Assembly: GCA_029262415.1 (NCBI GenBank)
Contig: JAJCZL010000024.1
Span: 1-53,854, forward strand
Length of the DNA stretch: 53,854 bases
Origin: Deltaproteobacteria bacterium
Lineage (GTDB): Bacteria; Desulfobacterota; Binatia; UBA1149; JAJCZL01
Direction of reading: 5' to 3'
The translations under genes were made by a program, and so were the position numbers. This document shows positions 29,022 through 48,438 of the stretch, piece by piece (the stretch's first letter is position 1; every line of letters begins with the position of its first letter). The notes below the pieces were generated by a model that worked only from the letters and a program-made list of their open reading frames with translations, had not been told where the DNA came from and did not search any database.

Positions 29022-29855
29022 ATGAGAGGTTTAATATCCCCCGCGGTTGTAGGCTTCGCCGCGATCTGGTTGCTCGGTCCGACGGTCACCGCACAAGCCG
29101 GGCCGACCAAGGCACAGCAATGCGCCGTATCGAAGCTCAAGGAAACCGGCAAGTACGAGCGTTGCCGACTGAACGCCGAAGCGAAAGGCGTCAAGAAGAA
29201 CGCGGCGCCGGACTTCACCAAGTGCGACGTGAAGTTCGGCGAGAAGTGGACCAAGGCCGAGAACAAGTTCGGCGCAGAGTGCCCGACTGCGGGTGATGCC
29301 GCGGCGATACAGGCATTCTCATCCGGCCACACGGACGACGTTGTCTCGCTCCTGAACCCCACGGAAAGGATCGTCTTCGTAACGAGTCAGCTAGTACTGG
29401 GGAAACTTGGAGGGCTTACCGGCGCCGACGCCGAGTGCCAGGCTGCCGCCGATAGCGCGGGTTTACTCGGGGCCTATCTTGCGTGGCTGTCCACAAGCAC
29501 GGTGGGACCGGCAGATCGGTTTGTGCAATCAACCGTTCCCTACGTTCGTACCGACGGAGCGATCGTTGCCCTGGACTGGGCTGATTTGACGAGCGGTTCC
29601 ATCAGGGCGGCGATCAATGTCGATGAGTTTGCAAACACGATCTCCGGTCATCCGACCTGGACGAACACCGATGTGGACGGAACTCCGCTTAATAACGTAG
29701 GAGACCCGACCTTAGACTCGTGCGACGAGTGGACGAGTTTCGGCGGCCAGGCTGGAAACGGTTTCACGACCGCGGTTGATGGAGGCTGGACCATCGGCAG
29801 TCAGACGAACTTCAGCTGCGCGAGCGCATTCCAACTGTACTGTTTCCAGCTGTAG
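29022..29855 (+). CDS. Secreted DUF1554 (endostatin-like) protein
   Basis: A 277-residue protein with a Sec signal (MRGLISPAVVGFAAIWLLGP, cut near AQA). Residues about 30-95 are a cysteine-containing helical segment (CAVSKLKETGKYERCRLNAE, APDFTKCDVKFGEKWTKAEN) often repeated in secreted proteins of uncultured deltaproteobacteria-like genomes. The C-terminal 160 residues fit DUF1554, the Leptospira Len/endostatin-like fold (LGGLTGADAECQAAADSAGL, then YLAWLSTSTVG, DWADLTSG and the closing YCFQL). Such proteins are extracellular; in Leptospira related domains bind host proteins. Function here is unknown. Confidence 0.8.
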   Translation: MRGLISPAVVGFAAIWLLGPTVTAQAGPTKAQQCAVSKLKETGKYERCRLNAEAKGVKKNAAPDFTKCDVKFGEKWTKAENKFGAECPTAGDAAAIQAFSSGHTDDVVSLLNPTERIVFVTSQLVLGKLGGLTGADAECQAAADSAGLLGAYLAWLSTSTVGPADRFVQSTVPYVRTDGAIVALDWADLTSGSIRAAINVDEFANTISGHPTWTNTDVDGTPLNNVGDPTLDSCDEWTSFGGQAGNGFTTAVDGGWTIGSQTNFSCASAFQLYCFQL

Positions 29856-32141: not shown

Positions 32142-34193
32142 TCAGCGCAGATAGCCGAGGCTTCGCAGGCGCTCCTTCGCCTCCTCGTCCAGGCCCTCGA
32201 ACCCGGAACGCACGGGCTCGGGTTCAGTGGCGAACGAAAACGGGCGGGCGGCCGCTTGCGCAAGCAGGGCCTCGAGTTTGGCCGCAAGGCGAACGACAAT
32301 CTCGGGGCTGTCGACAGCCAAGTTGGTTCGTTCCTGCGGATCAAGGACGGTGTCGTAGAGTTCATGGGCGCCGTCAGACGACCAGATAAGCTTCCAGCCT
32401 CCCTCGCGGATCGCGCGCAGCCTACGCGAAAAGCCGGCGAGCCGTTCTCCGCCCCTTGCGAGATCCTCAGCGTCGAACGTCGACAGCGCCTGGTTCGGGA
32501 AGTAGTACTCGGCGACCGGGCCCGCGGCGGCGGTCAGCGGCCGCCGCAGATCGCGGCCGCCGGTGCCCGCCGGCCGAGCGTCGGGAGCGGCGGCGGCCGC
32601 GATAGTCGCGTACAAGTCGGCTGAATCGACCGGACGCGCCTCTGTGCGCCCGGCCTCCACCCCGTTGCCGAGCAGAATCAGCGGCACCCGCAGGAGGGAA
32701 TCGTGGATTGAGAAAACGTGGTCGAAGTGACCGTGGTCGCCGAGGTTCTCGCCATGATCGGAAGTAACGACAACAAGCGTCTCATCAAGAAGCCCCCTGT
32801 TGCGCAATTCGTCGAGCAGGTCCCCGAAGATCTCGTCCAGTTGCACGATCTCGGCGTCGTAGAGGTCGCTGAGGCGGGCAAAGTCCTCCTCACTCAGTGG
32901 GTTGGTCCCTGCATAGTACGCCTGCCAACTTTGATCGATGCTGCGGGCGGCCCGCCGGAGGTCCGCGTCCGCTACGACGCGCCGCAGGAACTCCTCGGGC
33001 GGCTCATAGGGCGAATGCGCTTCGATGTAGTTCAGGAACACAAAGAAGCGATCATCATCGTCCAGGCCATCGAGAAAGTGCAGCAAGGCCGCGTTGTTCA
33101 CGTGCTGTGGCCCGGCGCCGTACACGGCATCAACGTCTTTGCGCCACGTCGGCAAGAACGTTCCGAAGCCTTGCTCCAAGCCGGTGTGTCTGCCCACGAT
33201 GCTGTTGCCTACGGCCGCCATCGTTTGATAGCCGTCGTTGCGCAGTATCTCGGCAAGCGTGAAGTGGCGGTCGTCCAGCTTCAGGTGTTCCTGGGTCGCG
33301 CCATGCGCGACCGGGAGCAGTCCGGTGAACAGGGTGGCGTGCGACGGCAGAGTCCAAGGCGCCACACTGTAGGCATTGCTGAAGACCGCGCCGCGAGCCG
33401 CCGCAGCGCTTAACTCGGGAGCCGTGTCGCGGCCGTAGCCGTACATTGAGAGGTGCGAGGCCGACACAGTGTCGAGCACGACGAGCAAAACATTCGGCTT
33501 CGAATCCGCGTCCAAGCGGACGTGGCGCGCAACCTCCGCGCCGGACACAACCACCGTCGTGAGCGCTGCGGCTGCAAGCGGCAGGAGAAACGTAGGTCTC
33601 GGCGACTTCAGTAAGGCCGAAACGAAGAATCGTAGAGCGATCGCGGCCAGGACCGTCCCGCCGACGAAAGTCCAAAACAGCCGGTGCTGTAAGGCCCAGC
33701 CCATACGCAGCGTGGCTAGGAGATCAGCCGCGCTTGAAGGCAGGAGCGGTAGTGCGAAATCGAGCACTTGGTTTCGCCACAGCGCCGCGCAGACGAGGAC
33801 CAACGCACCGAAGGCCAGCGCCGCGGCGCGCGCGACGTAGCCTAGGGGCCTGAGGACGTTGAGACCGAACAAGCCGAGATGGACGAAGGCCGAGACCGCG
33901 ATCGCGGTCGGCAACACCGAGCGAACCCGATCGGCAACCGCGAACAAGGGCAGCCACAGCAGGCCGGCCTCGGCGTATCCGTTGTGGAAAGCAACAACGC
34001 TTTCTTCCACCACAGCTGCGATCAAGGCCGCGGGTAGTGCGTCGAGCAAGACCACAACCGGCACCCAGGCCACTCGCAGCAGACGGCTTACGAACACGCG
34101 TTCAACTCGTCGCGAGCGACGCCGCGGGGTTTCGAGGTTCGCGCTGCTGGGTTCTTCATGGAATCCTGTGGGGACATGCAGCCGCCGTGTCAC
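32142..34193 (-). CDS. Membrane-anchored sulfatase-fold (alkaline phosphatase superfamily) enzyme
   Basis: A 683-residue protein. Residues about 40-235 hold several hydrophobic helices, then comes a sulfatase-fold catalytic domain starting KPNVLLVVLDTVSASHLSMY. The nucleophile motif reads PWTLPSHATLFTG: Thr sits where formylglycine sulfatases have Cys, as in phosphoethanolamine and phosphoglycerol transferases and phosphodiesterases. Metal ligands follow (VVVTSDHGENLGDHGHFDHV). The topology (N-terminal TM block, large outer domain) is that of LTA-synthase/PEtN-transferase-like enzymes, suggesting transfer of a phospho group to an envelope polymer rather than sulfate hydrolysis. GTG start. It is divergent from the GT-C fusion with only about 50 bp between the starts. 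Confidence 0.82.
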   Translation of the reverse strand: MTRRLHVPTGFHEEPSSANLETPRRRSRRVERVFVSRLLRVAWVPVVVLLDALPAALIAAVVEESVVAFHNGYAEAGLLWLPLFAVADRVRSVLPTAIAVSAFVHLGLFGLNVLRPLGYVARAAALAFGALVLVCAALWRNQVLDFALPLLPSSAADLLATLRMGWALQHRLFWTFVGGTVLAAIALRFFVSALLKSPRPTFLLPLAAAALTTVVVSGAEVARHVRLDADSKPNVLLVVLDTVSASHLSMYGYGRDTAPELSAAAARGAVFSNAYSVAPWTLPSHATLFTGLLPVAHGATQEHLKLDDRHFTLAEILRNDGYQTMAAVGNSIVGRHTGLEQGFGTFLPTWRKDVDAVYGAGPQHVNNAALLHFLDGLDDDDRFFVFLNYIEAHSPYEPPEEFLRRVVADADLRRAARSIDQSWQAYYAGTNPLSEEDFARLSDLYDAEIVQLDEIFGDLLDELRNRGLLDETLVVVTSDHGENLGDHGHFDHVFSIHDSLLRVPLILLGNGVEAGRTEARPVDSADLYATIAAAAAPDARPAGTGGRDLRRPLTAAAGPVAEYYFPNQALSTFDAEDLARGGERLAGFSRRLRAIREGGWKLIWSSDGAHELYDTVLDPQERTNLAVDSPEIVVRLAAKLEALLAQAAARPFSFATEPEPVRSGFEGLDEEAKERLRSLGYLR

Positions 34194-34246: not shown

Positions 34247-37200
34247 ATGGCCTCGTCAACGGCGGGCTGGATGGCGCCGATCCTGTTCTTGCAGGCGGCG
34301 AACCCACGGATCCTGGCATCTTGGCACGGTTTCCTGCACGCGGCGATTGCCTCGGCCGTGGTGCGGACGGGGCTGCCGCCGGAGAATCCGTTCTTTGCCG
34401 GCGAGCCGCTGCGCTACTACTACGTCTACCACTGGGTGAGCGTGCTCACTAGTGCCGTGCTGCCGGTCGACCCGCTGCAGGCGTTTCAGATCCTCACCCT
34501 ATTCGGCCTCGCCTGTCTCATCTTTGGCGTCGGTCTTGCGGCAAAACGGATGACCGGATCGAACATGGCAGCGACCGTTGCCGGTCTGTTCGCGTTGGCC
34601 GGCCTGAACCCGCTTGGACCCCTGCTCGCGGGGGCACGCGCGCAGCTGCGCGGGCAGCTGCTTTGGCACGATGCAGCGCATGCCGCGCATGCCGCCGGGG
34701 ATCTCTACGTCACCAACCGGCTTGCCGACCAGTGGATGATACATCCGCTGCTGCCGAAACTCTACGTGTCTAACGACTGGCGTTTCGGCAACGACCTGGT
34801 GTGGTTCCTCGACAACTCCTCGCGCGGACTCGGGCTGGGGCTGTTCGCGCTGCTGTGTCTCGTCGTATTGAGCACGGGCGCGCGCGTACGGCTAGGTTCG
34901 GCCGCCGCGGCCGTTCTCGGTTGCGCCGTCTCCGCATTGAACCCTTTGCTGGGTCTTGCAGGCTGTGGCGCGCTCGCCGCCGGAGCCATCGTTGCGCGCG
35001 CGATCCCTCGACGCCGCGAGGCCGACACGGTTGCGATCTCCCCGGCGCTGGCGGCCTGCGCAGGCGCCGTCGCGGCCTTTCCGAGCTACGCACTGCTGTT
35101 CGGCCAAGGCGAAGCCGTCCTTGGGCTTTCGCCGGGCGTACATCTACTCGGGAAGACGCTCAACACCTCGGCGAACTTCCTTCTGCTCCTACCCCTGGCG
35201 CTGCTTGCCCGTGCGCACGCGCGGAGCGGGCGGGCAGGAAGCATGCAGCCGGACTCGTGGATAGTGGCGGCCACGTTGCTCTTGCTCACATCGATCCTGA
35301 CTGCGTTGCCGGAGAACAACGAACACAACCTCGCTAACCTTGCGCAGGTTCTGCTTGCGGTTCCCGCCGCTGCCGGACTCATGCGCTTGCGATCCCCGGT
35401 GCGCTTCGCCGTCGCCGGGTGGTGCATCCTTCAGGCCTGCGCGATCTTCGTTTCGTTCGCCGGCAGGCCTGCGATGCCGCTGGTGTCGCGCTCGGGGGAA
35501 CTGCGCAGGGCCGAAGCGGAAGATGGACTGCACGAAGCCTACCGTTGGATCCGTGACCAGACCGCCGAACGCGCCGTCCTCGTCACCGATCCCGCCCGAC
35601 CTATCAAGATGTCGGGGAACGTCTCCGAACTGCCCGCCCTGAGCGGCCGCAGCCTCTTCGTGGACCAGCGCAGCTATTTGATTGAGCCTTATCCGGACAT
35701 GGAAGAGCGCCTACGGGTGGCCGGCGCGATCGCCTCGGGCAGTGCAAGCGAGGCAGACATCGCGACGGTCACCGCGCACGGCAGGCCGGTGTACCTTCTG
35801 AGTACCGAAGCCGCTTCTCAGGAGCGCATTGCCGTCTTGACGCGGGCGTACGGGCCGCCCGCGTTGCGCTCCGGGATCGCCGCGATCTTTGCGATCGGGG
35901 CACAACCTGAGGGCTGGGCCCCCGAGTTTGCAGGTTACCTCGGCGGCGCCGAGGTAGATCAAGCGCGCGATGTCGCGATCGATCGCGAGGGCAACGTGTA
36001 TGTAACCGGCGGCACCGCTTCGGACGGCTTTCCCGCAGCGCCACGGGGCGTCGCCTCCACCACCATCGGCGGCGCGAGCGAACCGGGTCCGGGCGACGCG
36101 CGTACGGATCCAATCGCGATGGACGTCTTCATCACGAAACTCTCCCGTTCCGGCGAGTTGGTGTGGACGCGCAGACTGGGGGGCCCCGGCTACGACCGGG
36201 CCTATGCCGTCGAGGTAGACGTTGCCGGCAATGTTTACCTCGCCGGCCGTGCCGGCGGCGGGTTCCCCGTCAGCGCGGGCGCGTTCCAAACGCGCTTCAT
36301 GGGCGGAACCCAGAGCCCGCGCTACGGGTCTCAGGACGGCTTCGTCTGCAAGCTCACCGCGGCAGGCGAACGCGTCTTCTGTAGTTATTTCGGGAGCGGC
36401 GACCCGATGCCGGTACGCGACCTGGCGGTTGCGGCTGACGGTACCATCTACCTCGCCTCCGGAAGCAAGACCGCCGACTTTCCGCAGACGGTTGCGCGTG
36501 CGTTCAACAACCGTCCGCGCGGTGGTGGGGACGCGGTTGCCGCGAAGATCTCACCCGACGGAGGTCGGGTCTTGTGGGCCACCTACCTGGGCGGAAGCGG
36601 CCGCGAGAGCCACGAAAACTCAATTCGACTGGACGCAACCGGCAACCCCTTTGTCTTGTTCACGACCGAGTCGACCGGGATCGCAACGCCCGGTGCGTTC
36701 AGCACGCGTTACTCGGGACATCAGGACGTCTTCGCCGCCAAGCTCGACCCCGCCGACGGCTCTTTAGTCTGGGGAACGTACTTTGGAGGCTCCGGTAACG
36801 AATCCACGGAGACCCACGAGTTCGCGGTCGATGCCGCGGGACACGCGTATATCGCCGCGCCGACGACGTTCGCACCGGACTTTCCGGTGACGGCAGGATG
36901 CCTGCAACCCAGCTACGGCGGAGGCGGCAATGACATGTTCGTTGCAAAGCTTTCGGCCGACGGCTCGGAACTCCTCGCCGCGACCTTCCTCGGCGGGGCG
37001 GGTAAGGACAGGCCCGAGGGCGTCGCGGTGGACCCCTCGGGTCGCGTCTATGTGACGGGCACGACCACGTCGAGAGACTTTCCCGTTACCGCCGATGCGG
37101 CACAGCCCAAGTTGAGAGGGGAACGTGACAGCGTCGCTGTGGTGCTGTCGCCTGCGCTGGACATGCTCATCTATGCGACGTTCCTCGGAGGATCAGGCAT

Positions 37201-37357
37201 CGAGTACGGCCGCGGCATGGCGGTTTCTTCGAATTCAGGTCTGTTCGTAATCGGCGGTGACACGAGTTCCGGGGACTGGCCGGCACGCCCCCCGCTGCCG
37301 GTGCTCTACGGCGGCGGCCCGAGCGACGGGTTCGTCGCAGCGTTTGCGCACAAGTAA
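34247..37357 (+). CDS. GT-C-like membrane protein fused to SBBP beta-propeller repeats
   Basis: A 1036-residue fusion. Residues about 1-420 are polytopic with a GT-C-like signature (LPPENPFFAGEPLRYYYVYH), the loop used by lipid-linked-sugar glycosyltransferases of the DUF2298/ArnT type. After a linker, residues from about 560 to the end are seven-bladed-propeller (SBBP) repeats (YLGGAEVDQARDVAIDREGN; GGPGYDRAYAVEVDVAGNVY; TFLGGAGKDRPEGVAVDPSG). The ATG at 34247 is chosen over an earlier frame start at 34037 that would lie inside the divergent gene. The propeller matches blade segments of the separate protein at 43042, so the two are relatives. I know of no named enzyme with this architecture. 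Confidence 0.75.
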   Translation: MASSTAGWMAPILFLQAANPRILASWHGFLHAAIASAVVRTGLPPENPFFAGEPLRYYYVYHWVSVLTSAVLPVDPLQAFQILTLFGLACLIFGVGLAAKRMTGSNMAATVAGLFALAGLNPLGPLLAGARAQLRGQLLWHDAAHAAHAAGDLYVTNRLADQWMIHPLLPKLYVSNDWRFGNDLVWFLDNSSRGLGLGLFALLCLVVLSTGARVRLGSAAAAVLGCAVSALNPLLGLAGCGALAAGAIVARAIPRRREADTVAISPALAACAGAVAAFPSYALLFGQGEAVLGLSPGVHLLGKTLNTSANFLLLLPLALLARAHARSGRAGSMQPDSWIVAATLLLLTSILTALPENNEHNLANLAQVLLAVPAAAGLMRLRSPVRFAVAGWCILQACAIFVSFAGRPAMPLVSRSGELRRAEAEDGLHEAYRWIRDQTAERAVLVTDPARPIKMSGNVSELPALSGRSLFVDQRSYLIEPYPDMEERLRVAGAIASGSASEADIATVTAHGRPVYLLSTEAASQERIAVLTRAYGPPALRSGIAAIFAIGAQPEGWAPEFAGYLGGAEVDQARDVAIDREGNVYVTGGTASDGFPAAPRGVASTTIGGASEPGPGDARTDPIAMDVFITKLSRSGELVWTRRLGGPGYDRAYAVEVDVAGNVYLAGRAGGGFPVSAGAFQTRFMGGTQSPRYGSQDGFVCKLTAAGERVFCSYFGSGDPMPVRDLAVAADGTIYLASGSKTADFPQTVARAFNNRPRGGGDAVAAKISPDGGRVLWATYLGGSGRESHENSIRLDATGNPFVLFTTESTGIATPGAFSTRYSGHQDVFAAKLDPADGSLVWGTYFGGSGNESTETHEFAVDAAGHAYIAAPTTFAPDFPVTAGCLQPSYGGGGNDMFVAKLSADGSELLAATFLGGAGKDRPEGVAVDPSGRVYVTGTTTSRDFPVTADAAQPKLRGERDSVAVVLSPALDMLIYATFLGGSGIEYGRGMAVSSNSGLFVIGGDTSSGDWPARPPLPVLYGGGPSDGFVAAFAHK

Positions 37358-37450
37358 TCCGTTTTCGCGCCCGCATACCGCATGTACTCGGCAGAGCCGG
37401 CGTTTCCAGAACGGTTCTTTCCATGCCTACTATGTATGTGGCCGATCGGC

Positions 37451-38536
37451 ATGAAGGAAAGACACCGTCCACGCATCAAGCGCGAGCCCTGCTTCCGCGC
37501 CGCCCGGCTGACTTTGCTCGCCGTCGTTCTGCTGTGCCGCACCAGCGCGCTCGCAGGCTTTGAACAAGGCGTGCAGGCCCACGACCGCGGGGATTTCGCG
37601 ACCGCGATGCAAGAGTTCGAAGCGGCCGCGCGCAAAGGCGACCTGCGGGCCCAGTACAACCTCGGCGTAATGTACCAGGAAGGCCTCGGCGTCGAACGCG
37701 ATGCCGCTGTAGCCGGAGAGTGGTTCAAGCAGGCGGCGGCACAAGCTGCCGAGGATGAAGCCGCCCGGCCCGACCTGGGCGAGGCGGCACAGCTTGCAAC
37801 GCAGCCGGCCAAGTGGTTCCGGCAGTCGACCCAATCTGCGCAAACCGCAAACCAGGGGACCTCGAGTCTGGGATTCTCGGACGCACCCGTTGAGCTTGGA
37901 TCCCTGCTCGTCAATCTCATGATCGGCGTCGTCATCTCTCTGGTGCTGGCAATGCACTTTCGGCTCTTCTCGACGACGCTCACGAACCGCGACAACCTTG
38001 CCTTCACGTTCCCGTTCATTCTACTGACCACGCTGCTCATCATCACGATCGTGAAGTCCTCTCTTGCGCTTTCACTCGGACTCGTCGGAGCACTCTCGAT
38101 CGTACGCTTTCGCACGCCGATCAAGGAACCCGAAGAGCTCGCGTACCTGTTCATGGCGATCGCGGTAGGGTTGGGGTTGGGCGCGAACCAAAGGCTTCCA
38201 ACGGTCGTCGCCGTTGCCGTGATCCTCGTGGTCATGGCGCTGCTGAAACGGCGGCAGATGGGAAATCGGTCGGAGAATCTGTTCTTGTCCGTGGACTTCA
38301 CGGAACAGGACGGACAAACGGCACCGAGTATCGACACGCTTGCCCGCGTGATCAACGGCCACGTCGTCTCTAATGATCTCAGGCGCTTCGACCAGCGCGA
38401 CGGGACCCTGGAGGCGACCTACCTAGTGCAACTGGCCGGGCCGCAGCAGCTCGGGCGGCTCATTGAGACGCTCCGCACGGAGTTTCCGGGGCTCGGCATC
38501 ACGTTTCTCGATCAGGACCGGCTCACTGCTCCTTAA
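37451..38536 (+). CDS. Sel1-like repeat plus DUF4956 membrane protein
   Basis: A 361-residue protein. It starts with a Sec signal (ARLTLLAVVLLCRTSALAGF, near residue 35), followed by one to two Sel1-type helices (FEQGVQAHDRGDFATAMQEF; GDLRAQYNLGVMYQEGLGVE), then a DUF4956 domain with about four membrane helices and its landmark GALSIVRFRTPIKEPEELAY, and a soluble C-terminal domain (about 280-361). DUF4956 proteins are often encoded beside CotH and VTC genes, as here, and probably form a membrane complex with them. The first ATG is uncertain: 37382 is also possible. The CotH gene begins 15 bp downstream. Confidence 0.82.
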   Translation: MKERHRPRIKREPCFRAARLTLLAVVLLCRTSALAGFEQGVQAHDRGDFATAMQEFEAAARKGDLRAQYNLGVMYQEGLGVERDAAVAGEWFKQAAAQAAEDEAARPDLGEAAQLATQPAKWFRQSTQSAQTANQGTSSLGFSDAPVELGSLLVNLMIGVVISLVLAMHFRLFSTTLTNRDNLAFTFPFILLTTLLIITIVKSSLALSLGLVGALSIVRFRTPIKEPEELAYLFMAIAVGLGLGANQRLPTVVAVAVILVVMALLKRRQMGNRSENLFLSVDFTEQDGQTAPSIDTLARVINGHVVSNDLRRFDQRDGTLEATYLVQLAGPQQLGRLIETLRTEFPGLGITFLDQDRLTAP

Positions 38537-38550
38537 AGGAACCGTCGGTC

Positions 38551-41229
38551 GTGATCCTGAAACCGCGAGAGCCCAAAGCAGCGGCACCGACTCGCCTGGC
38601 GGGCGCAGCGGCTTCCAACCGACCGGTATTGACCGCTCTCGCGATTGCTTTCTCGGTCGTGGCGCTACTTGCCGGCTTCGCACTGAAATTCGACGTCGGC
38701 ACAAGCCTGCGCCGCTCACTGACGGAACTCGGTTTTATTTCTACCCATCAGTCGCGAAGCAGCCGGGGCCTGATAAGGCTCCCTGGACGCTGGCTCGCAA
38801 CGAGGTTCAGCGCGGCCGAGGTTCCGATGCTCGCCCTCGATATCAAGTTCAAGGATCTCCAGGCACTTCAAAAACGAAGGGACGAAGCCTTACGCGAGGG
38901 GCTCCTGCAACAGCGCGAGGACGACTACGTTTCCGCAGCTATCCGGCTGGACAACCGCCGGGTGAGAGTGAAGCTCCGACTGAAAGGCGACCTTGTCGAC
39001 CATTTCACGGGGGATCAGTGGTCTTTCCGCGTTCACACCAAAGACGACGACCACATCTTCGGCTTGCGCCGCTTCTCCATCCAGCACCCGCGCGTGCGCG
39101 ACTTCCACATCGAACCGCTTTTCTTCGCCGCCATGGCGAGGGAAGGAATCCTCGCACCGCGCTACTTCTTCGCCGATGTCCGACTGAACGGAGACGACTA
39201 CGGAACCATGGCGATCGAGGAGCACTTCTCCAAAGAGTTGCTTGAGTGGCGGCATCGCACCGAGAGCGTGATTCTGCGCTTCGACGAATCACTTTTTTGG
39301 GCGGCGAGCGACGGCTTTGAGCACGGCTTTTACGGCGTCTTTGACAACTTTGCGAGTGCCCCGATCACCGCGTTCGGCTCGGGTCGCGTCGCGGAATCGC
39401 CGCGCTTGCGCGAGCACTTCGCTGTCGCTTCGGGGCTGTTGCAGGGGTTTGCCAGGGGCGAGCTCCAAGCGGGGGAAGTCTTCGACACCAGGCTGTTCGG
39501 CCGCTACGTCGCGGTCGCGGAACTTTGGGGGGCGCGCCACGCCTTGCGTTGGCACAATCAGCGCTTCTACTACAACCCGACCACGGCCAGGCTGGAGCCG
39601 ATCGCGTTCGACTCCGGTGCGGGCCACGCGCTTGACGCCGAAGAAATGGTCTCACGCCGCGAGCCCATCGTGGTCCGCATGCTCGAGGACCCCGTGATCT
39701 CAGCCGAGTACCTCACTACGCTGGAGCGGATAGGAGCCGAGCTTGAAGAAGGCCTACTCGGGCGCGAGCTGGGCGCAATAGAGTCGGGCTATCTCGAAGT
39801 GCTCCGGCCGCGTTACCCCTTGCTCGACGGTTTCGACTTCGAGCGTCTGTCCCGTCGCGCCGACCGCTTGCTGGCGCTGGTCGATCGGCCCGGCGGATTG
39901 CCTTATCCCGATTACCCTGCGCTCGCGCACGCCAGGGTCTACGATTCCGGCGGAGTTACGGTCGTCGAGATCACCAACGCCGTTCCTCACCCGATCGAAG
40001 CGGTGTCGGTGTCCTGGGCTGATCCGGAGGGGGGCGCACGCACGGGAGAGATCGCATTGGGTGACGGATCACCGCTGCTGTTAGAGGCCTCGCCGAAGGC
40101 CGCTCCGCCTTCTACGTTGCGCGTACCCCTAACAGCTCCGCGTGGGGCCGAGACCTGGGTCCCCGAACTCACCGTGCGTATCAGAGGGCACGCGCGCCTC
40201 TACCGCACCACAGCTTTGCCTGGAGCGCCGGCCTTGACCACAAGGCCGGTGGCGCCGGTCGGCGCCGAAACGCTCGCGCGGCAGTACGAGTTCCTCGATT
40301 GGGACCCGCGAACCCGACGTCTTGGAGTCCGTCCCGGCACTTGGTCTATCGAAACGCCTCTGGTCGTAGGCTCTGACGTGCAGCTCACCGTCGGCGCGAG
40401 AACCACGCTGGCCTTCGCCCCGGAAGCTGCGTTGATTTCCTATGGGCCGGTGGAATTCAGCGGCTCCGCTTCAGATCGAATCCTGCTGAAACCCCTGACG
40501 CCTGCACTAGGGTGGCAAGGCGTGGCCGTCCTTGCCGGTGGCCGGCCATCATCATGGAAGCACGTCTCCGTCCAGGCGACGACCGGCATCGACCAGGCGG
40601 GATGGAAGCTGACCAGCGGCGTAACGTTCTACCAGAGCCCGATCCAGATGCACGATTGCGTCTTTAGCGACAACCGTACGGAAGACGCGCTCAACGTCGT
40701 TCGCTCCCAGTACAGTCTGCAGAGGATTCACATCCTCGACGCCGTCTCCGATGGATTCGATTCGGACTTCTCCGACGGAGTGATCCAGTCAAGCCGTTTC
40801 GAACGCATCGGCTCTGCCGGCGGCGGCGACGCCATCGATGCAAGCGGCAGCCGTATCGAGATCCGCGAAGTTGCGTTTCAGACCATAGGGGACAAGGCGC
40901 TCTCGATCGGCGAAGGCAGTGTTGTCACGGCCGACCATGTGGAGATCGACGGCGCGAGCGTTGGTGCGGCAAGCAAAGACGGATCGAGGCTACATTTGCG
41001 GGACAGTCGCATCCGCAACGCGGCGCTGGCGCCGCTGATGGCCTACGTAAAAAAGCCCGAGTACGGACCGGGCAAGCTGAGGGCAGAGAGAGTTTCCATC
41101 GACCGTTCACCGAGAATCCAAGCCCAGACCGGCAGCGAGATCATCCTTGACGGGGTCTTGGTGGCGACGTCTGACATCGATGTCGAAGCCCTGTACGCGG
41201 GTGTAATGCGCCCGGGGTTGAGGAGATGA
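38551..41229 (+). CDS. CotH-like kinase with C-terminal beta-helix domain, membrane-anchored
   Basis: An 892-residue protein. An N-terminal anchor helix (TALAIAFSVVALLAGFAL, about residues 30-48) faces a large exported part. The CotH core is visible: RRVRVKLRLKGDLVDHF, then WHNQRFYYNPTTARLEPIAF (residues 334 on), the typical loop with an Asp ending in FDSGAG. CotH of Bacillus phosphorylates spore-coat proteins. Residues from about 600 to the end form right-handed beta-helix-like repeats (VEFSGSASDRILLKPL, SDGFDSDFSDGVIQSSRFER), an adhesion or polymer-contact fold. Start: GTG after AAGGA. The end overlaps the VTC start by four bases (ATGA). Confidence 0.82.
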   Translation: MILKPREPKAAAPTRLAGAAASNRPVLTALAIAFSVVALLAGFALKFDVGTSLRRSLTELGFISTHQSRSSRGLIRLPGRWLATRFSAAEVPMLALDIKFKDLQALQKRRDEALREGLLQQREDDYVSAAIRLDNRRVRVKLRLKGDLVDHFTGDQWSFRVHTKDDDHIFGLRRFSIQHPRVRDFHIEPLFFAAMAREGILAPRYFFADVRLNGDDYGTMAIEEHFSKELLEWRHRTESVILRFDESLFWAASDGFEHGFYGVFDNFASAPITAFGSGRVAESPRLREHFAVASGLLQGFARGELQAGEVFDTRLFGRYVAVAELWGARHALRWHNQRFYYNPTTARLEPIAFDSGAGHALDAEEMVSRREPIVVRMLEDPVISAEYLTTLERIGAELEEGLLGRELGAIESGYLEVLRPRYPLLDGFDFERLSRRADRLLALVDRPGGLPYPDYPALAHARVYDSGGVTVVEITNAVPHPIEAVSVSWADPEGGARTGEIALGDGSPLLLEASPKAAPPSTLRVPLTAPRGAETWVPELTVRIRGHARLYRTTALPGAPALTTRPVAPVGAETLARQYEFLDWDPRTRRLGVRPGTWSIETPLVVGSDVQLTVGARTTLAFAPEAALISYGPVEFSGSASDRILLKPLTPALGWQGVAVLAGGRPSSWKHVSVQATTGIDQAGWKLTSGVTFYQSPIQMHDCVFSDNRTEDALNVVRSQYSLQRIHILDAVSDGFDSDFSDGVIQSSRFERIGSAGGGDAIDASGSRIEIREVAFQTIGDKALSIGEGSVVTADHVEIDGASVGAASKDGSRLHLRDSRIRNAALAPLMAYVKKPEYGPGKLRAERVSIDRSPRIQAQTGSEIILDGVLVATSDIDVEALYAGVMRPGLRR

Positions 41230-41912
41230 CAATGCGCCCCGGGGCTCGCTTTGAGACGAAGTACGTGGCGGACGGGTCGCTATACCACGACGTTGTTCAT
41301 TGGTTGCGCATGCATCCGGCGGGCTTCCGCATTCTCTACCCTCCACGCTGGGTTAACAGTGTGTACTTCGACAACGCGGAACTCGCCTCCTACGATGAAA
41401 ACCTCGCCGGGGTCTCGCGGCGTGCGAAGCTGAGGCTACGCTGGTACGGCGACAAGGAACTGCCATCACGTGGGGTATTGGAAGTGAAACAGCGAGACGA
41501 TCGGCTCGGGTTCAAGCAGACTTGCACGGTGACGCTGCCGTCCAACCGTGCGACCCTGACCTGGCGCAGCAACATTGAGCGAATGTGTCAGGCACTGCCG
41601 CCGCAGTTCCGCTCCTGGTTCCGGGAACACCCGCAAGCGGTCATGCAGAACCGCTACCTCCGCGACTACTACCTCTCGGCCGACGGCGCAGTCCGAAGCA
41701 CCGTGGACCGCAGGCTCGCGGTGTACGACCAACGCTATGCTGGTGTGCCGCACTTGCGCCGGCGCGTGCCGATCGTCGACGTCACCGTCCTCGAACTAAA
41801 GTTCGCGCCTGAACTGCAGGCGCGGGCGGCGCAGATTGTCAAAGACGTACCGCTGCGTCTGAGCCGGCACTCAAAGTACGTCGGTGCGGTCGGAGCCATG
41901 CATGGGTATTGA
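41226..41912 (+). CDS. VTC-domain protein (polyphosphate polymerase-like)
   Basis: A 228-residue protein covering the VTC4-type catalytic tunnel domain. Conserved basic and acidic positions appear in order: RFETKY (8-13), SVYFDNAELASYDENLAGV, RRAKLRLRWYG (about 66-76), EVKQRDDRLGFKQ, RSTVDRRLAVYD, VLELKFAPELQA and the closing RLSRHSKYVGAVGA. In yeast this domain makes inorganic polyphosphate from ATP at a membrane. Bacterial VTC proteins beside CotH and DUF4956 are uncharacterised, so polyphosphate synthesis is a guess. No signal peptide is seen, so it should be cytosolic at the membrane face. The ATG overlaps the CotH stop by four bases. Confidence 0.9.
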   Translation: MTMRPGARFETKYVADGSLYHDVVHWLRMHPAGFRILYPPRWVNSVYFDNAELASYDENLAGVSRRAKLRLRWYGDKELPSRGVLEVKQRDDRLGFKQTCTVTLPSNRATLTWRSNIERMCQALPPQFRSWFREHPQAVMQNRYLRDYYLSADGAVRSTVDRRLAVYDQRYAGVPHLRRRVPIVDVTVLELKFAPELQARAAQIVKDVPLRLSRHSKYVGAVGAMHGY

Positions 41913-42897
41913 GCGCGCTCGCGGCCCGCGGACGCTGATCGCGCTCGTCACGCTCGTCGCCGTCTGTGCCGTCCTCGCAGGAGCGTTCGGTTTCGAATTC
42001 GCGCGCGACCGTTATCGCCGCCTCGAGTACGCGCAACACCTCGCACTGGGCGCAGCGGTTCGCAACGGGCTCGTCGCTCGGGGGTTCCGCGCGGTCGTTG
42101 AACCGAGCGTCTCCGGAACTGAGGCCGCGAACCTGTGGTTCGTCGGTCACATTTACCCGAAGAACCGCTTCTTCGGCGGGGAGAAGCCACAGTTTCCCGA
42201 CAGTGAACGGCCGCTGGCGTTTTTGGAGCGACTCGCCGCACATCGACCGCCGCAACGCATCCTCTTCGGGGGCGACAGCGTGTGGAAACCGACGCCCGAC
42301 GCGCTTGACCACCTCGAGGCACTCGCCGACCACTTGCCCCAGGCGCGCTTCATCTTGGGTAACCACGACGACTACTGGGGAACCTTGCGTACGATGCCGC
42401 AACGCTTCGACGCCATCTATCGCCGACGCTACGGGAGCGAAGACATCGACGGTGTTCGTGTCATTCACGTGCACACGGTCAGCGAGGACGGCCGCTACGG
42501 GCTCGACGCCGAACAACGCCTCTTCCTCAACGCGGCGCTGGACGGTACTTCCTACCGATACGCCTTGCTGACGATGCACCACGCCCTTTGGGCGGGCGCC
42601 GGAACTCAGACCAACACCCCCTACCCAGACGCCGAGAACCTGGCGGACGATTGGGTGGCGAACGTTGCCCCGCTGCTGGTGCGGGGGCGCGTCAAAGCCG
42701 TACTCGCGGGCGACGGCGGCTGGCGTTCTCACGGCGTGGTCTACGATATTGAAGGCATTCCCCACTACTTGACGGGTTGGTCAGGGTTCCGCAGTGACAT
42801 TGCACCCGAATGGTTGTCGATCCGGTTCGATTCGAGCGGTCCCGTCACACACTGGAACGTCCTTTGGAGGGAAGTGCACTACCGCAAGCAGGGTTGA
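41902..42897 (+). CDS. Calcineurin-like metallophosphoesterase with degenerate metal motifs, membrane-anchored
   Basis: A 331-residue protein starting 11 bp inside the VTC gene. An N-terminal helix (ALVTLVAVCAVLAGAFGFEF) is an anchor or signal, so the domain is probably periplasmic. GGDSVWKP and ILGNHDDYW are two core motifs of the calcineurin-like phosphoesterase fold, and TMHHALW matches motif IV. The first motif (normally D-x-H) reads VGHIYP, and the last (normally G-H-x-H) reads AGDGGW, so the metal site looks incomplete. It may be inactive or use one metal. Tight coupling to CotH, VTC and DUF4956 suggests it trims or senses a phosphate-bearing product. Confidence 0.72.
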   Translation: MGIERARGPRTLIALVTLVAVCAVLAGAFGFEFARDRYRRLEYAQHLALGAAVRNGLVARGFRAVVEPSVSGTEAANLWFVGHIYPKNRFFGGEKPQFPDSERPLAFLERLAAHRPPQRILFGGDSVWKPTPDALDHLEALADHLPQARFILGNHDDYWGTLRTMPQRFDAIYRRRYGSEDIDGVRVIHVHTVSEDGRYGLDAEQRLFLNAALDGTSYRYALLTMHHALWAGAGTQTNTPYPDAENLADDWVANVAPLLVRGRVKAVLAGDGGWRSHGVVYDIEGIPHYLTGWSGFRSDIAPEWLSIRFDSSGPVTHWNVLWREVHYRKQG

Positions 42898-43041: not shown

Positions 43042-44778
43042 ATGTCCCCGACGCTATTTCGTAGTTGGTTCCTCATTATCGGCTCTGCCGCCGCGCTTGC
43101 CGGTTCGACCTTGTTCTTCACTTCGGCGACTGCGTTTGCTCAACCGTCACTACAGAACTACTCGATCCGCTTTTCGACGTTCCTGGGTGGATCGGACAAG
43201 GAGATGGTCCGCGACATCGCCTTTGACGTCGATCGTAACTTCTACGCGGTCGGCGGTGGCGCATCGACCGACTTCCCGATCATCTCCAACTCTGGGGGCT
43301 TCGTCTTCGATGACACCCAGAACGGTGGATGGGATGTATTCGTCACTAAGTACACATCCCAGGGCGTGTTGCTCTGGTCAACATTTATCGGCGGCCCCGG
43401 ATACGACCGCGCCTACGCCGTCGATTCCGCGCCCGACGGCGGACTCTACATAGCCGGTCGCGCCGGCATAGGGTTTCCGGTGACTGCCGGCGCCCTGCAG
43501 ACCAGTTTCAGCGGCGGACGAAGTGGCGCGAACGATCCCTACTTCGAACAAGACGGCTTTGTCTGCCGAATGAGTAGCGAAGGCGAGGTTTCGGCCTGCA
43601 CCTATTTCGGTGCCGCCGACGGCCGCATCATCCGTGATATCGCAATCGGTCCGGCCGGAGAGGTCTATATCGCCGGTTCATACCGCTCCGGACCGTACCC
43701 GGCCGCCATCGATCAGGCACGACTTAACGATCCGTACGGTGGCAACGAAGACGTCTTCATCGCTAGACTGAGTGCTGACCTGACTTCCGCGCTTTGGCTG
43801 CGCTTCATCGATGGCAACGCCAACGACCAGGTGATGGCATCGCTTGGTACCGACGCCGTAGGCAACGTGTTCGTAGCCAGCACCACCACGTCGTCTGGAT
43901 TGGCAACCCCCGGTGCGTACGACGAAAGCCACGGCGGTGGAAACGATGTCTTCATAGCAAAGCTTACAAGCGCCGGTGATCTGACGTGGCTGACCTATCT
44001 CGGCGGAAGCGGAGACGACTTCACCGAAACTCATGAGTTGGCCGTAGCCGGCGACGGTACGGTGACGGTAGCGATTAGTAGCAATTCACCTCACGACAGC
44101 TTCGCCACCGACCAGGCGACGATCGTGTCGAGCTACGGACCCGGAGGAAGCACCGACGTGGTAGTAGCCCAGGTCGCGGCCCAGGGTGACCGGATTAGCG
44201 CGCTTACGTTTATCGGAGGTACCGCCATGGATTTCGCTGAAGGCTCGGCCCTGGACGGAACCGGCGCGTTCTATTTTACGGGCAACAGCCAATCGGCCGA
44301 TTTCCCTATTACCGGCAACGCCATCCAGAGTGAGAATCTCGGACTCAGCGCTATCGTGGTCAAGCTATCGAAGCGGCTAGAGACGGTTTTCGCCAGCTAT
44401 CTGGGCGGTGCATCAAGCGGTCACCAGGGACGCGGGATCGCCGCCGACCTCAGCGGTGATATCTTCCTCGGTGGACAAACGGCGAGTGGCAGCTTCTTTA
44501 CGCAAAACGCTGCGCAGCCGCAGATAGGGGGCGGTAACACCGACGGGTTCATCGAAATGCTGCAGACGCCGCTTTCGTGCGGAGACCTCGGCGGTAACGG
44601 CAGCGTAACCGCGAACGACGCCCTCGAGGTGCTCCAGGCTGCCGTCGGACTATCGGCCTGTGACGTCTGCATTTGCGATGTGGATGCGTCCGGCGAGATC
44701 AACACCACCGATGCCTTGGCAACTTTGCAGTTTGCAGTTGGTGTGCTTACGCAGCTGGCTTGCGTCGCCTGTCCCTAG
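43042..44778 (+). CDS. Secreted SBBP beta-propeller protein with C-terminal dockerin-like repeats
   Basis: A 578-residue exported protein. The signal (FRSWFLIIGSAAALAGSTLF, cut near AFA-Q) is followed by SBBP blades (FLGGSDKEMVRDIAFDVDRN; IGGPGYDRAYAVDSAPDGGL; FGAADGRIIRDIAIGPAGEV). From about residue 510 two calcium-loop repeats follow (GGNGSVTANDALEVL and DASGEINTTDALATLQ), a dockerin-type tail with cysteines at the end. Blades match the propeller half of the fusion at 34247, including GGPGYDRAYAV. It is probably a cell-surface scaffold or adhesion protein. The same strand as the CotH-VTC operon, with 144 bp between, fits a shared role. Confidence 0.82.
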   Translation: MSPTLFRSWFLIIGSAAALAGSTLFFTSATAFAQPSLQNYSIRFSTFLGGSDKEMVRDIAFDVDRNFYAVGGGASTDFPIISNSGGFVFDDTQNGGWDVFVTKYTSQGVLLWSTFIGGPGYDRAYAVDSAPDGGLYIAGRAGIGFPVTAGALQTSFSGGRSGANDPYFEQDGFVCRMSSEGEVSACTYFGAADGRIIRDIAIGPAGEVYIAGSYRSGPYPAAIDQARLNDPYGGNEDVFIARLSADLTSALWLRFIDGNANDQVMASLGTDAVGNVFVASTTTSSGLATPGAYDESHGGGNDVFIAKLTSAGDLTWLTYLGGSGDDFTETHELAVAGDGTVTVAISSNSPHDSFATDQATIVSSYGPGGSTDVVVAQVAAQGDRISALTFIGGTAMDFAEGSALDGTGAFYFTGNSQSADFPITGNAIQSENLGLSAIVVKLSKRLETVFASYLGGASSGHQGRGIAADLSGDIFLGGQTASGSFFTQNAAQPQIGGGNTDGFIEMLQTPLSCGDLGGNGSVTANDALEVLQAAVGLSACDVCICDVDASGEINTTDALATLQFAVGVLTQLACVACP

Positions 44779-46320: not shown

Positions 46321-48438
46321 TTGTTGCCTACTCCTCGCCGGCACTGCACCATGCTCGAAAGACTTTCGAAAGCGACCAAAGACAACGGATCGGCACTGCG
46401 GGTGGTGTTGTTTTCCGGTGGTCGCGGCTCTGAGGTGCTCTCGCAGCAGCTCATTGTAAACGACCGGATCGATCTGACCCTGGCGATCAACGGTTACGAT
46501 GACGGTAAATCTACAGGCGAAGTCCGGAGATTTATCGGCGACTGCCTCGGTCCATCCGATTTTCGCAAGAACGCGGCGCGCATGGTGAGCGCGATGAACA
46601 CCTGCCCGAAAGGCCTCATCGCCCTTCTCGACCAACGACTCGCCGACGACTGCTCAAAGGAAGCCGGGCTCAGCATCCTCGCCTTGCTCGGGAGCGGGCA
46701 AGACGAGATTATTACCCCCAACTCCGAGCTGGAAAAGCAGACGGTACTCAGCCTGTCCGAGCTGCCCGCCGGGACGCGTGAAGAAGTAGCAAAACGGTTC
46801 CGCGCTTTCTCCGATGAGCTTCAGCTAAACCAGCGGAACTTCTCTTTTTCCGATTGCAGCCTCGGCAACCTGGCCTTCGCGGGTGGCTACTTGATAAACA
46901 ACCGCGAGTTCAATTCCGCGGTTGCCGACTACTGCAATCTTCTCGGCTTGCCCGAAGGACTCGTTGAGAACGTAACCGACGGACAAAACGCTTTCCTTGT
47001 CGCGATCGACCGCCAAAACCGGCTGTTGAGTTGCGAGGCCGAAATCGTCGATGCCTCTGAACACAGTTCGATCCGCGAGATCTACTTAATCGACGAGTGG
47101 CTCGGCAGAGATCAGGCTTCCGAGCTTGGACGGCTCTCGCCGGAAGAGCTGGAAGGCTTCCTGGACGACCACAAGATCACACCGCAACCGAATGCGAGAC
47201 TGCTCGACAAAATCGCCCTTGCCGACGTCATCATCTACGCGCCCGGCACCCAACACTCCAGTCTTCTCCCTTCGTACATGACTCGGGGCTTGGGTGAGGC
47301 CGTCGCGGGGAATCTACATGCAATCAAGCTTCTGGTGACCAATATCCAAGAAGACTCCGAAATACTCGACACCAGCGCCATCGAACTAGTAGCCAAAGCG
47401 GTTTACTATCTGCGCGACAAGGACCGTCTAGACATACCGAGTCCCTGTTTGATCACCCATTGCCTCATCAACGATCCAACCGGCACACACACTGACGCTC
47501 CTTATGTCCCGCTCGGATCGCTGAACAGCGTCGAGGACCCAAGGCTGATCCGCATCGCCAACTACGAGGAAGGCATAAGCGGTCGTCATAACGCGACGAA
47601 AGTGTTGACGCCGTTTATTGAAACCTTAGTGGCCAGAGATGCCCGTCGGCGCGTCGCCGTGCTTCTGGTCGGCACCGAATCGCGGGACAAGCTCACCCAA
47701 ACACTCCTCGAAGCACTGCGCGGCGGGCTTGGCGATCTCACTGTCGAAGTCGAGGTGTTTTACGCGAGTCCGAATCCCATCCCCGACGATTTTGCCGCCA
47801 AACTCCCCTGCGGATTGCGAAACGTCTGGCGAAGCGACGCGTCCACCGAACAGCTGTTGCTCGGGACGGTACGCGAGCAGGCCTGCGACTACGTGGCATT
47901 GTTCGAGTCCTCGGGGATGTATCGCGGCGAAGACCTCGTACACTTGCTTTCCTTGCTGTCGGTTGGCGAGCTTGACGCCGTGTGGGGAAGTCGACGGCTG
48001 TCCGTTCGTGACATCCGAGAATCCTACAAATTACGTTACCGGCGCAACCCCATACTCGGCGCGGTCAGCTACGTAGGTAGCCATATGCTCAGCCTTATCT
48101 ACTTAGTACTGTACGGTCGCTACGTGTCCGATACCTTGTCGGGAGCCAGAGCGTTGCGGGCCCGGTTTTTTGACTCGCCCGACGTCGATCTGGCGGATAA
48201 GAAACTCAACCAACGGTTACTGTCCGGCGTGCTAGAAAACAACGGCGATCTGTTCGAGACCCCGGTGCGTTTTTTTTCGATGTCACCTATCCAAGTTAAG
48301 CGAACTACAGTCCGTGAGGGACTGGGCTCGATCCTCAGCATCCTGATATGGCGATTCCGAAGGGTGCGACACTCATCAGCCAAGGCGGCCGACGGCGTCG
48401 CGGTAAACGACAGCCGTACCGATTCGGTACGGCGTTAG
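46321..48438 (+). CDS. CofD/YvcK-like domain fused to a GT2-like domain
   Basis: A 705-residue single polypeptide. Residues about 25-400 form a CofD/YvcK-type fold: GGRG (33-36) as phosphate loop, NGYDDGKSTGEVRRFIG (57 on), GPSDFRKN (77-84), and the later APGTQHSSLLPSY (from about residue 307). CofD makes the F420 precursor by phosphate-bridged transfer, and YvcK binds UDP-GlcNAc. Residues about 430-690 resemble a GT2 transferase of the DPM1 type (LDAVWGSRRLS, YVSDTLSGARAL), but the region where GT2 enzymes have DxD reads ALFESSGMY, so the domain may be inactive. Start is uncertain: TTG at 46321 or ATG at 46351. It heads a four-gene operon. Confidence 0.78.
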   Translation: MLPTPRRHCTMLERLSKATKDNGSALRVVLFSGGRGSEVLSQQLIVNDRIDLTLAINGYDDGKSTGEVRRFIGDCLGPSDFRKNAARMVSAMNTCPKGLIALLDQRLADDCSKEAGLSILALLGSGQDEIITPNSELEKQTVLSLSELPAGTREEVAKRFRAFSDELQLNQRNFSFSDCSLGNLAFAGGYLINNREFNSAVADYCNLLGLPEGLVENVTDGQNAFLVAIDRQNRLLSCEAEIVDASEHSSIREIYLIDEWLGRDQASELGRLSPEELEGFLDDHKITPQPNARLLDKIALADVIIYAPGTQHSSLLPSYMTRGLGEAVAGNLHAIKLLVTNIQEDSEILDTSAIELVAKAVYYLRDKDRLDIPSPCLITHCLINDPTGTHTDAPYVPLGSLNSVEDPRLIRIANYEEGISGRHNATKVLTPFIETLVARDARRRVAVLLVGTESRDKLTQTLLEALRGGLGDLTVEVEVFYASPNPIPDDFAAKLPCGLRNVWRSDASTEQLLLGTVREQACDYVALFESSGMYRGEDLVHLLSLLSVGELDAVWGSRRLSVRDIRESYKLRYRRNPILGAVSYVGSHMLSLIYLVLYGRYVSDTLSGARALRARFFDSPDVDLADKKLNQRLLSGVLENNGDLFETPVRFFSMSPIQVKRTTVREGLGSILSILIWRFRRVRHSSAKAADGVAVNDSRTDSVRR

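Follow-up and report, generated by a model that had tools for sequence, protein, structure and literature searches.

A patchily spread DUF4956-CotH-VTC cassette with a rewired phosphoesterase-like partner and a possible role in the phosphate decoration of extracytoplasmic polymers

The genes encoding CotH, VTC-type polyphosphate polymerases and DUF4956 membrane proteins have been described in several biological contexts. The cotH-PPP-DUF4956 genes are accessory genes of the pel clusters of Gram-positive bacteria (PMC7112168). In S. intermedius (SIR_1592-1594), deletion of the CotH and DUF4956 genes alters the level of Pel and aggregation, and synteny outside the Pel locus is reported as not found (PMC12345266). 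In the yeast VTC complex, polyphosphate synthesis is coupled to a membrane channel with a basic lining (PMC9911596), and two arginines of its polymerase Vtc4, R264 and R266, are essential for this synthesis (PMC8749416). The B. subtilis CotH mutants D228Q and D251A are inactive (PMC7821199). Here, we analyse a locus that joins the three families to a fourth, phosphoesterase-like gene. It is found in contig JAJCZL010000024.1 of a Deltaproteobacteria bacterium (assembly GCA_029262415.1; Desulfobacterota, Binatia), of which the whole analysed stretch of 53,854 nucleotides is called the window in what follows. The cassette belongs to a divergent branch that is patchily spread and is widespread outside Pel.

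The four genes form a same-strand operon (37451-42897, plus strand) in the order DUF4956, CotH, VTC and phosphoesterase-like gene. A preliminary description of the window, made from its sequence, had given a gap of 15 bp followed by two overlaps, one of ATGA and one of 11 bp. The ATGA (CotH/VTC) and 11-bp (VTC/phosphoesterase-like) overlaps are borne out, whereas DUF4956 and CotH are separated by 14 bp. Predicted sigma-70 promoters and terminators did not exceed those of shuffled controls. The VTC domain (41226-41912, plus strand) is soluble and matches PF09359 well above the gathering cut-off (74.8 bits versus 23; E = 9.8e-21), and a profile of 42 VTC relatives matches yeast Vtc4 (3g3q, E = 3.7e-12). 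The tunnel residues, whose absence had been named as one of the points that would count against the preliminary description, are kept: R70 and R72, which align with R264 and R266 of Vtc4, are invariant in 42 out of 42 sequences, and so are E10, K12, E86, K88, R146, R157, E190, K192, S216 and K217. From its sequence, VTC looks cytosolic and intact.

The DUF4956 protein (37451-38536, plus strand, ATG start) is also above the cut-off of its family (PF16316, 67.6 bits versus 30.6; E = 1.4e-18), with additional matches to Sel1 (E = 7.6e-9) and, weakly, to MgtC (E = 0.018). Its basic residues K202, R219, R221, K225 and R312 are conserved in 90% or more of the 36 sequences compared. The protein of the window has 361 residues, and its 35 relatives have at most 256: the additional N-terminal signal-like segment and Sel1 repeat are unmatched by the lengths of these relatives. 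This added segment would lie outside the membrane, and the protein probably consists of an MgtC-like transmembrane part and a cytosolic C-terminal part.

The CotH gene (38551-41229, plus strand, GTG start) encodes one N-terminal transmembrane helix, a CotH-fold kinase domain and a right-handed beta-helix. Pfam gave no match to PF08757 at E = 0.1 in the window protein. Among five scanned relatives, two are above the gathering cut-off of 23.8 bits (L205, 35.4 bits; L091, 25.1), two are below it (L028, 21.9; L033, 17.9), and L034 has no match. Despite the absent Pfam match, the CotH fold of the window protein is confirmed by profile and by structure prediction. A profile of 60 relatives matches B. 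cereus CotH (5jd9, E = 4.2e-9); the predicted structure (mean predicted local distance difference test score, pLDDT, of 87.7) matches the same protein in Foldseek (E = 3.7e-11), and residues about 89-447 of the model align with 5jda with a Z of 27.7 (317 aligned residues, root mean square deviation 2.8).

The catalytic loop of this kinase domain (residues 330-354; 39538-39612, plus strand) is unusual. The aspartates of the NFD and PWD motifs of 5jd9 can be taken as equivalents of Asp228 and Asp251, because they have the same 23-residue spacing. On this basis D354, the metal-binding equivalent of D251, is invariant in the 60 sequences, as are N336 and H330, and R143, G146, D147, S158 and E223 elsewhere in the domain. 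The catalytic Asp228 has no counterpart, since none of the 60 sequences has an Asp at positions 330-333. The equivalence of H330 with Asp228 depends on the profile alignment, and an alignment through L019 and L020 (HFD and HYD) would place the Asp at 332; neither position 330 nor position 332 is an Asp in any of the 60 sequences. The canonical CotH encoded near VTC in two loci of the same phylum (L018 and L021) keep the Asp. Since the residue that defines the active kinase is absent, we did not class the window protein as an active CotH kinase.

The beta-helix (residues about 573-877) matches the alginate epimerases AlgG (4nk6, Z = 27.8) and AlgE4, with Z of 26-28. It holds 16 of the 29 invariant columns (residues 638-835), including D712, D734, D737, D739, D760, D763, D781, K782, K809, D810, K834 and K835. 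This series of Asp and Lys, roughly one group per coil, suggests a groove. The beta-helix tail, presented earlier as a novelty of this locus, is real but not special to the window, as it is the rule in this branch.

The fourth protein (41902-42897, plus strand, ATG start) has an N-terminal transmembrane anchor and a calcineurin-like fold. It falls below the PF00149 gathering cut-off (19.2 bits versus 21.5; E = 0.0017), which is passed by its relatives in L028, L039 and L205. The best Foldseek match of the model (pLDDT 76.7) is Rv0805 (2hyo, E = 2.1e-10, TMt 0.76). A phmmer search with the window protein retrieves only L041 (E = 7.8e-10) and three weaker matches; its family assignment combines the fold, the motif and the profile. 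The metal site is rewired in this protein and its CotH-linked relatives: where D-x-H is expected there is a shifted His (G, S or A followed by H-x-Y/H/R), and G-D or G-S stands in place of the terminal GHxH. The GD and GNHD motifs are mostly kept, and the MHH-type His is usually kept in CotH-linked proteins. We did not class the protein as a standard phosphoesterase, because the D-x-H and GHxH ligands are missing. The preliminary description had called this metal site incomplete, which is correct but understates a systematic change that is a family trait.

It had also described the phosphoesterase as coupled, and co-occurrence with CotH is supported in 247 Bacteroidia-type genomes, the sample to which the test applies. 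These genomes are related rather than independent, so that Fisher values obtained on them cannot be read as probabilities for independent samples. The phosphoesterase profile matches 33 of these genomes and the CotH profile 41, with 27 matched by both; 14 CotH genomes are without a phosphoesterase match. Five of the 33 (G755, G765, G797, G828 and G880, at 84-106 bits) retain both the first Asp and the terminal GH, and none of the five has CotH. The rewired form occurs in the other 28 genomes (26, including G727 where it is in pieces, plus G672 and G908), 27 of which have CotH, the exception being G865. Because the rewired form pairs with CotH (27 out of 28) and the five ligand-keeping proteins lack it, the loss of the ligands goes with the association with CotH. 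In 18 of the 27 pairs the genes are at most 700 bp apart on the same strand, and 4 further pairs lie within 10 kb (22 out of 27); the remaining five are unlinked by these matches, although in one of them, G726, a CotH piece directly precedes. In the class of genome G448, on which the search was centred and in which CotH lay outside the search, one of the 199 genomes has the rewired protein: G448 itself. Carriage on plasmids was considered and rejected, the window phosphoesterase having no match in 72,556 plasmid records.

We scanned contigs for relatives of the window CotH and kept the best 80 of the 297 found, some of which share a genome; neighbours were counted over all open reading frames (ORFs) within 10 kb. 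DUF4956 is found in 61 of these loci, VTC in 46, both in 43 and either in 64. When only the 52 loci flanked by at least 3 kb on each side are counted, these values become 39, 30, 29 and 40, respectively, and 15 loci have the phosphoesterase-like gene. Gene order is conserved as well: the gene immediately upstream of CotH is DUF4956 in 51 out of 80 loci, and the one immediately downstream is VTC in 39. The titles of the best 80 include Nitrospiraceae, Nitrospina, Deltaproteobacteria, Acidobacteria-type, Chloroflexi, Phycisphaerae, Bacteroidetes, Gammaproteobacteria and others. The recurrence of the order DUF4956-CotH-VTC in many phyla is more than would be expected by chance, and agrees with the recurrence of the trio mentioned in the preliminary description. 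The full order of the window is found on one strand in five Chloroflexi loci (L033, L034, L038, L039 and L052), and also in L040, where DUF4956 is cut by the contig end. Conserved order and co-occurrence support the view, already put forward, that the four genes are one unit.

Within the phylum of the window, 13 out of 395 genomes have a VTC match, including the window genome, which is the only one among 58 relatives where a protein search found CotH of this type. Among the other 12 VTC-bearing genomes, the window's order of DUF4956, CotH and VTC is repeated in L027, and L019 and L020 have the trio in a different order. In the sample of 247 genomes, VTC is found in 38 of the 41 CotH genomes versus 76 of the 206 others, and CotH is present in every one of the 12 genomes whose VTC scores at least 140 bits. 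A VTC match also exists elsewhere in 30 of 33 genomes that lack VTC near CotH, in 24 of them at 140 bits or more. Phaeodactylibacter luteus is one such case: DUF4956 and CotH share locus L092, and VTC is encoded in another part of the genome.

Simple hydropathy gives a consistent topology, even if some CotH ORFs are truncated. None of the 48 VTC has a transmembrane segment. CotH has one at the N-terminus in 85 out of 93 ORFs, and 4 more have a lipobox alone. In the phosphoesterase set, 21 out of 25 (including the canonical L047) have a transmembrane segment or a lipobox near the N-terminus. On the basis of this topology, polyphosphate would be synthesised inside the cell, with CotH and its partner outside.

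The genomic context links part of these loci to polysaccharides. Among 31 fetched Bacteroidia-type regions, we read gene by gene the 8 where DUF4956, VTC, CotH and the phosphoesterase stand spaced apart. In these, DUF4956 is paired with VTC, and CotH with the phosphoesterase. With the exception of L203, each has around or between the pairs a gene for a Wzy-like membrane protein as well as glycosyltransferase or sugar genes, all named by eye, and MBOAT-like genes were recognised by eye in L211, L215 and L225. Pfam confirmed the canonical CotH, Wzy_C and glycosyltransferase of L205 and the MBOAT of L211. The canonical CotH of L205 (5070-6794; PF08757 E = 5.1e-49) is a second CotH, has a chitobiase-type domain and has VTC on one side and the Wzy-like gene on the other; similar genes were named by eye in L206, L211, L215, L218, L222 and L225. 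Separately, a glucose/sorbosone dehydrogenase that is secreted and has PKD and sorting domains is a frequent neighbour of CotH (L094:12451-15159 and similar Saprospiraceae loci, 9 of 59 neighbours).

We propose, with a probability of roughly 0.4, that this self-contained cassette adds phosphate to a polymer outside the cytoplasm, which is most likely a polysaccharide. The surface-polymer role suggested in the preliminary description fits the exopolysaccharide neighbours of some Bacteroidia and the published linkage to Pel. VTC, given its intact tunnel residues, would polymerise phosphate from ATP inside the cell, and DUF4956, which has conserved basic residues within and beside its membrane part, may pass polyphosphate or phosphoryl groups across the membrane, a conduit function that we infer from analogy to yeast VTC and its basic channel. 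Outside, the polymer might be held on the beta-helix of the anchored CotH protein and then phosphorylated by its kinase domain, with the His in place of the usual Asp of the catalytic loop presumably taking part in the chemistry. The anchored phosphoesterase-like partner, with its rebuilt metal site, may bind or edit the product. The division of labour proposed here resembles that of polysaccharide O-acetylation systems, in which periplasmic enzymes receive acetyl groups from a membrane protein.

ATP is scarce outside the cell, and we know of no obvious ATP supply for extracytoplasmic kinases. A bolder version of the proposal, which we regard as unlikely, is a surface phosphorylation free of ATP: exported polyphosphate would be the donor, the CotH with the invariant His would phosphorylate the polysaccharide, perhaps via a phosphohistidine, and the rewired family would assist. 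The presence of a cytosolic polyphosphate maker, a membrane protein and an outside kinase in one cassette makes the problem of ATP supply testable. Our proposal also offers a possible mechanism behind the association of CotH, VTC and DUF4956, which has been published without an explanation, and the rewired phosphoesterase family can serve as a marker in searches for the system and offers another protein for experiments.

Several observations weigh against phosphate decoration. The activities of all four proteins are predicted from sequence. Neither DUF4956 nor VTC is found within 10 kb of CotH in 16 out of 80 loci; among the 33 genomes without VTC near CotH, a match is wholly absent in 3 and only 24 reach 140 bits. 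The phosphoesterase-like gene, at a threshold of at least 110 bits, is absent from most loci, being present in 21 out of 80 once the canonical enzyme of L047 (46 bits) is excluded. Outside the Bacteroidia clusters, no polymer-synthesis gene is shared among the 59 nearest same-strand neighbours scanned (of 63 selected proteins), and none is evident beside the window operon. In S. intermedius, no effect on aggregation is reported for the polymerase mutant, and all four accessory mutants continue to produce Pel (PMC12345266). Finally, the loss of the catalytic Asp could mean that the kinase is dead. In an alternative reading, CotH would be a pseudokinase or a glycan-binding scaffold, the beta-helix a working epimerase- or lyase-like enzyme acting on an exopolysaccharide, and VTC and DUF4956 would regulate the process via phosphate or polyphosphate levels. 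The lack of any Asp at positions 330-333 in 60 sequences speaks for this reading, as does a beta-helix that matches AlgG and AlgE4 at Z of 26-28 and concentrates 16 of the 29 invariant columns. Yet, the invariance of D354, N336, R143, G146, D147, S158, E223 and H330 in all 60 sequences would be unusual for a dead domain, and many beta-helix proteins merely bind glycans. We regard this alternative as rather unlikely.

Polyphosphate might itself be what the system makes, being exported and then fixed to the cell surface, where CotH and the phosphoesterase-like protein would cap, anchor or trim it. Such a secretion system would account for the intact residues of VTC, the conserved basic residues of DUF4956, the two anchored outer proteins and the phosphoesterase fold; it appears quite improbable, as the carbohydrate-type beta-helix and the polysaccharide clusters are left unexplained. 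We consider least probable a role in phosphate homeostasis or stress signalling, where an MgtC-like DUF4956 with a regulatory domain would control VTC, and CotH would phosphorylate surface proteins as a signal. It could draw on the weak similarity to MgtC, on the role in phosphate metabolism suggested for the streptococcal homologues in PMC12345266, and on clusters named by eye near CotH, response-regulator-like in 6 and ABC-transporter-like in 5 out of 84 loci. However, no gene of this kind is consistently linked to these loci: the most frequent cluster outside the core, judged glycosyltransferase-like by eye, occurs in 11 out of 84. The beta-helix would again be unexplained.

The preliminary description had included two upstream neighbours in the machine, and these were dropped, as they do not recur in our survey of 84 loci with flanks of up to 10 kb. 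The membrane sulfatase-fold protein (32142-34193, minus strand; PF00884 E = 2.4e-43; WTLPSHATLFTG) has a match in 2 loci only, the window and a weaker one, L061. It has a Thr in WTLPSH, which we take to be the position of the formylglycine motif, in place of Cys or Ser. The query with the fusion of a GT-C-like DUF2298 (E = 2e-11) and an SBBP propeller (E = 2.6e-28), encoded at 34247-37357 (plus strand, ATG at 34247), matches 5 of the 84 loci including the window; in the four others, Pfam detects no DUF2298, and what it does detect is either propeller-type repeats or just a secretion tail. A second SBBP propeller protein, with a dockerin-like tail assigned by Pfam (43042-44778, plus strand), is a possible partner. 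These two SBBP proteins flank the operon on both sides and have mutually similar propellers; the remaining SBBP matches of the genome are in contig C57. The SBBP query also matches proteins near CotH in L042, L056, L071 and L078, which are propeller-type or secreted and of differing types. Elsewhere in the window, a CofD-like domain is joined to a C-terminal part weakly similar to a glycosyltransferase family (46321-48438), and an endostatin-like match (29022-29855) is weak and under the Pfam cut-off (E = 1.3e-5). None of the 20 window proteins scanned with Pfam carries a Pel name, the other window proteins being outside that scan.

The cassette can now be placed among the systems that it resembles. 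One of the closest is the trio of the Gram-positive pel clusters, in which the same three families stand beside exopolysaccharide genes. The topology published for it (secreted CotH, membrane DUF4956, intracellular C-terminus) agrees with our hydropathy analysis. The CotH of pel clusters has FN3, whereas the CotH described here has a beta-helix instead, and part of our loci have a fourth gene, the rewired phosphoesterase-like one. In contrast with the lack of synteny outside Pel reported in PMC12345266, we observe the synteny of the trio in many phyla, mostly outside Pel as far as could be seen. The NELoc-2 locus of Clostridium perfringens gathers CotH, VTC and glycosyltransferase genes, and the compared passage of its table has no phosphoesterase (PMC2879425). 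A fourth component associated with CotH, VTC and DUF4956 was not found in the open-access PMC literature covered here.

The CotH protein shares the fold, the metal-binding Asp and the Asn with the spore-coat kinase of Bacillus (5jd9/5jda), but has no Asp at the Asp228 position, carries an additional beta-helix, and is anchored in the membrane, probably facing outwards. VTC shares the polymerase domain and the aligned arginines with yeast Vtc4; it differs in that the 228-residue window protein has no SPX domain, and DUF4956 is likened to the Vtc channel by analogy. The fourth protein shares the calcineurin-like fold and, mostly, the GD and GNHD motifs with enzymes of the Rv0805/GpdQ type, from which it differs by the shifted His in place of D-x-H and by G-D or G-S in place of GHxH. 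The additions made here are the wide branch, a CotH without the catalytic Asp, the systematically rewired partner and the predicted arrangement of the components inside and outside the cell.

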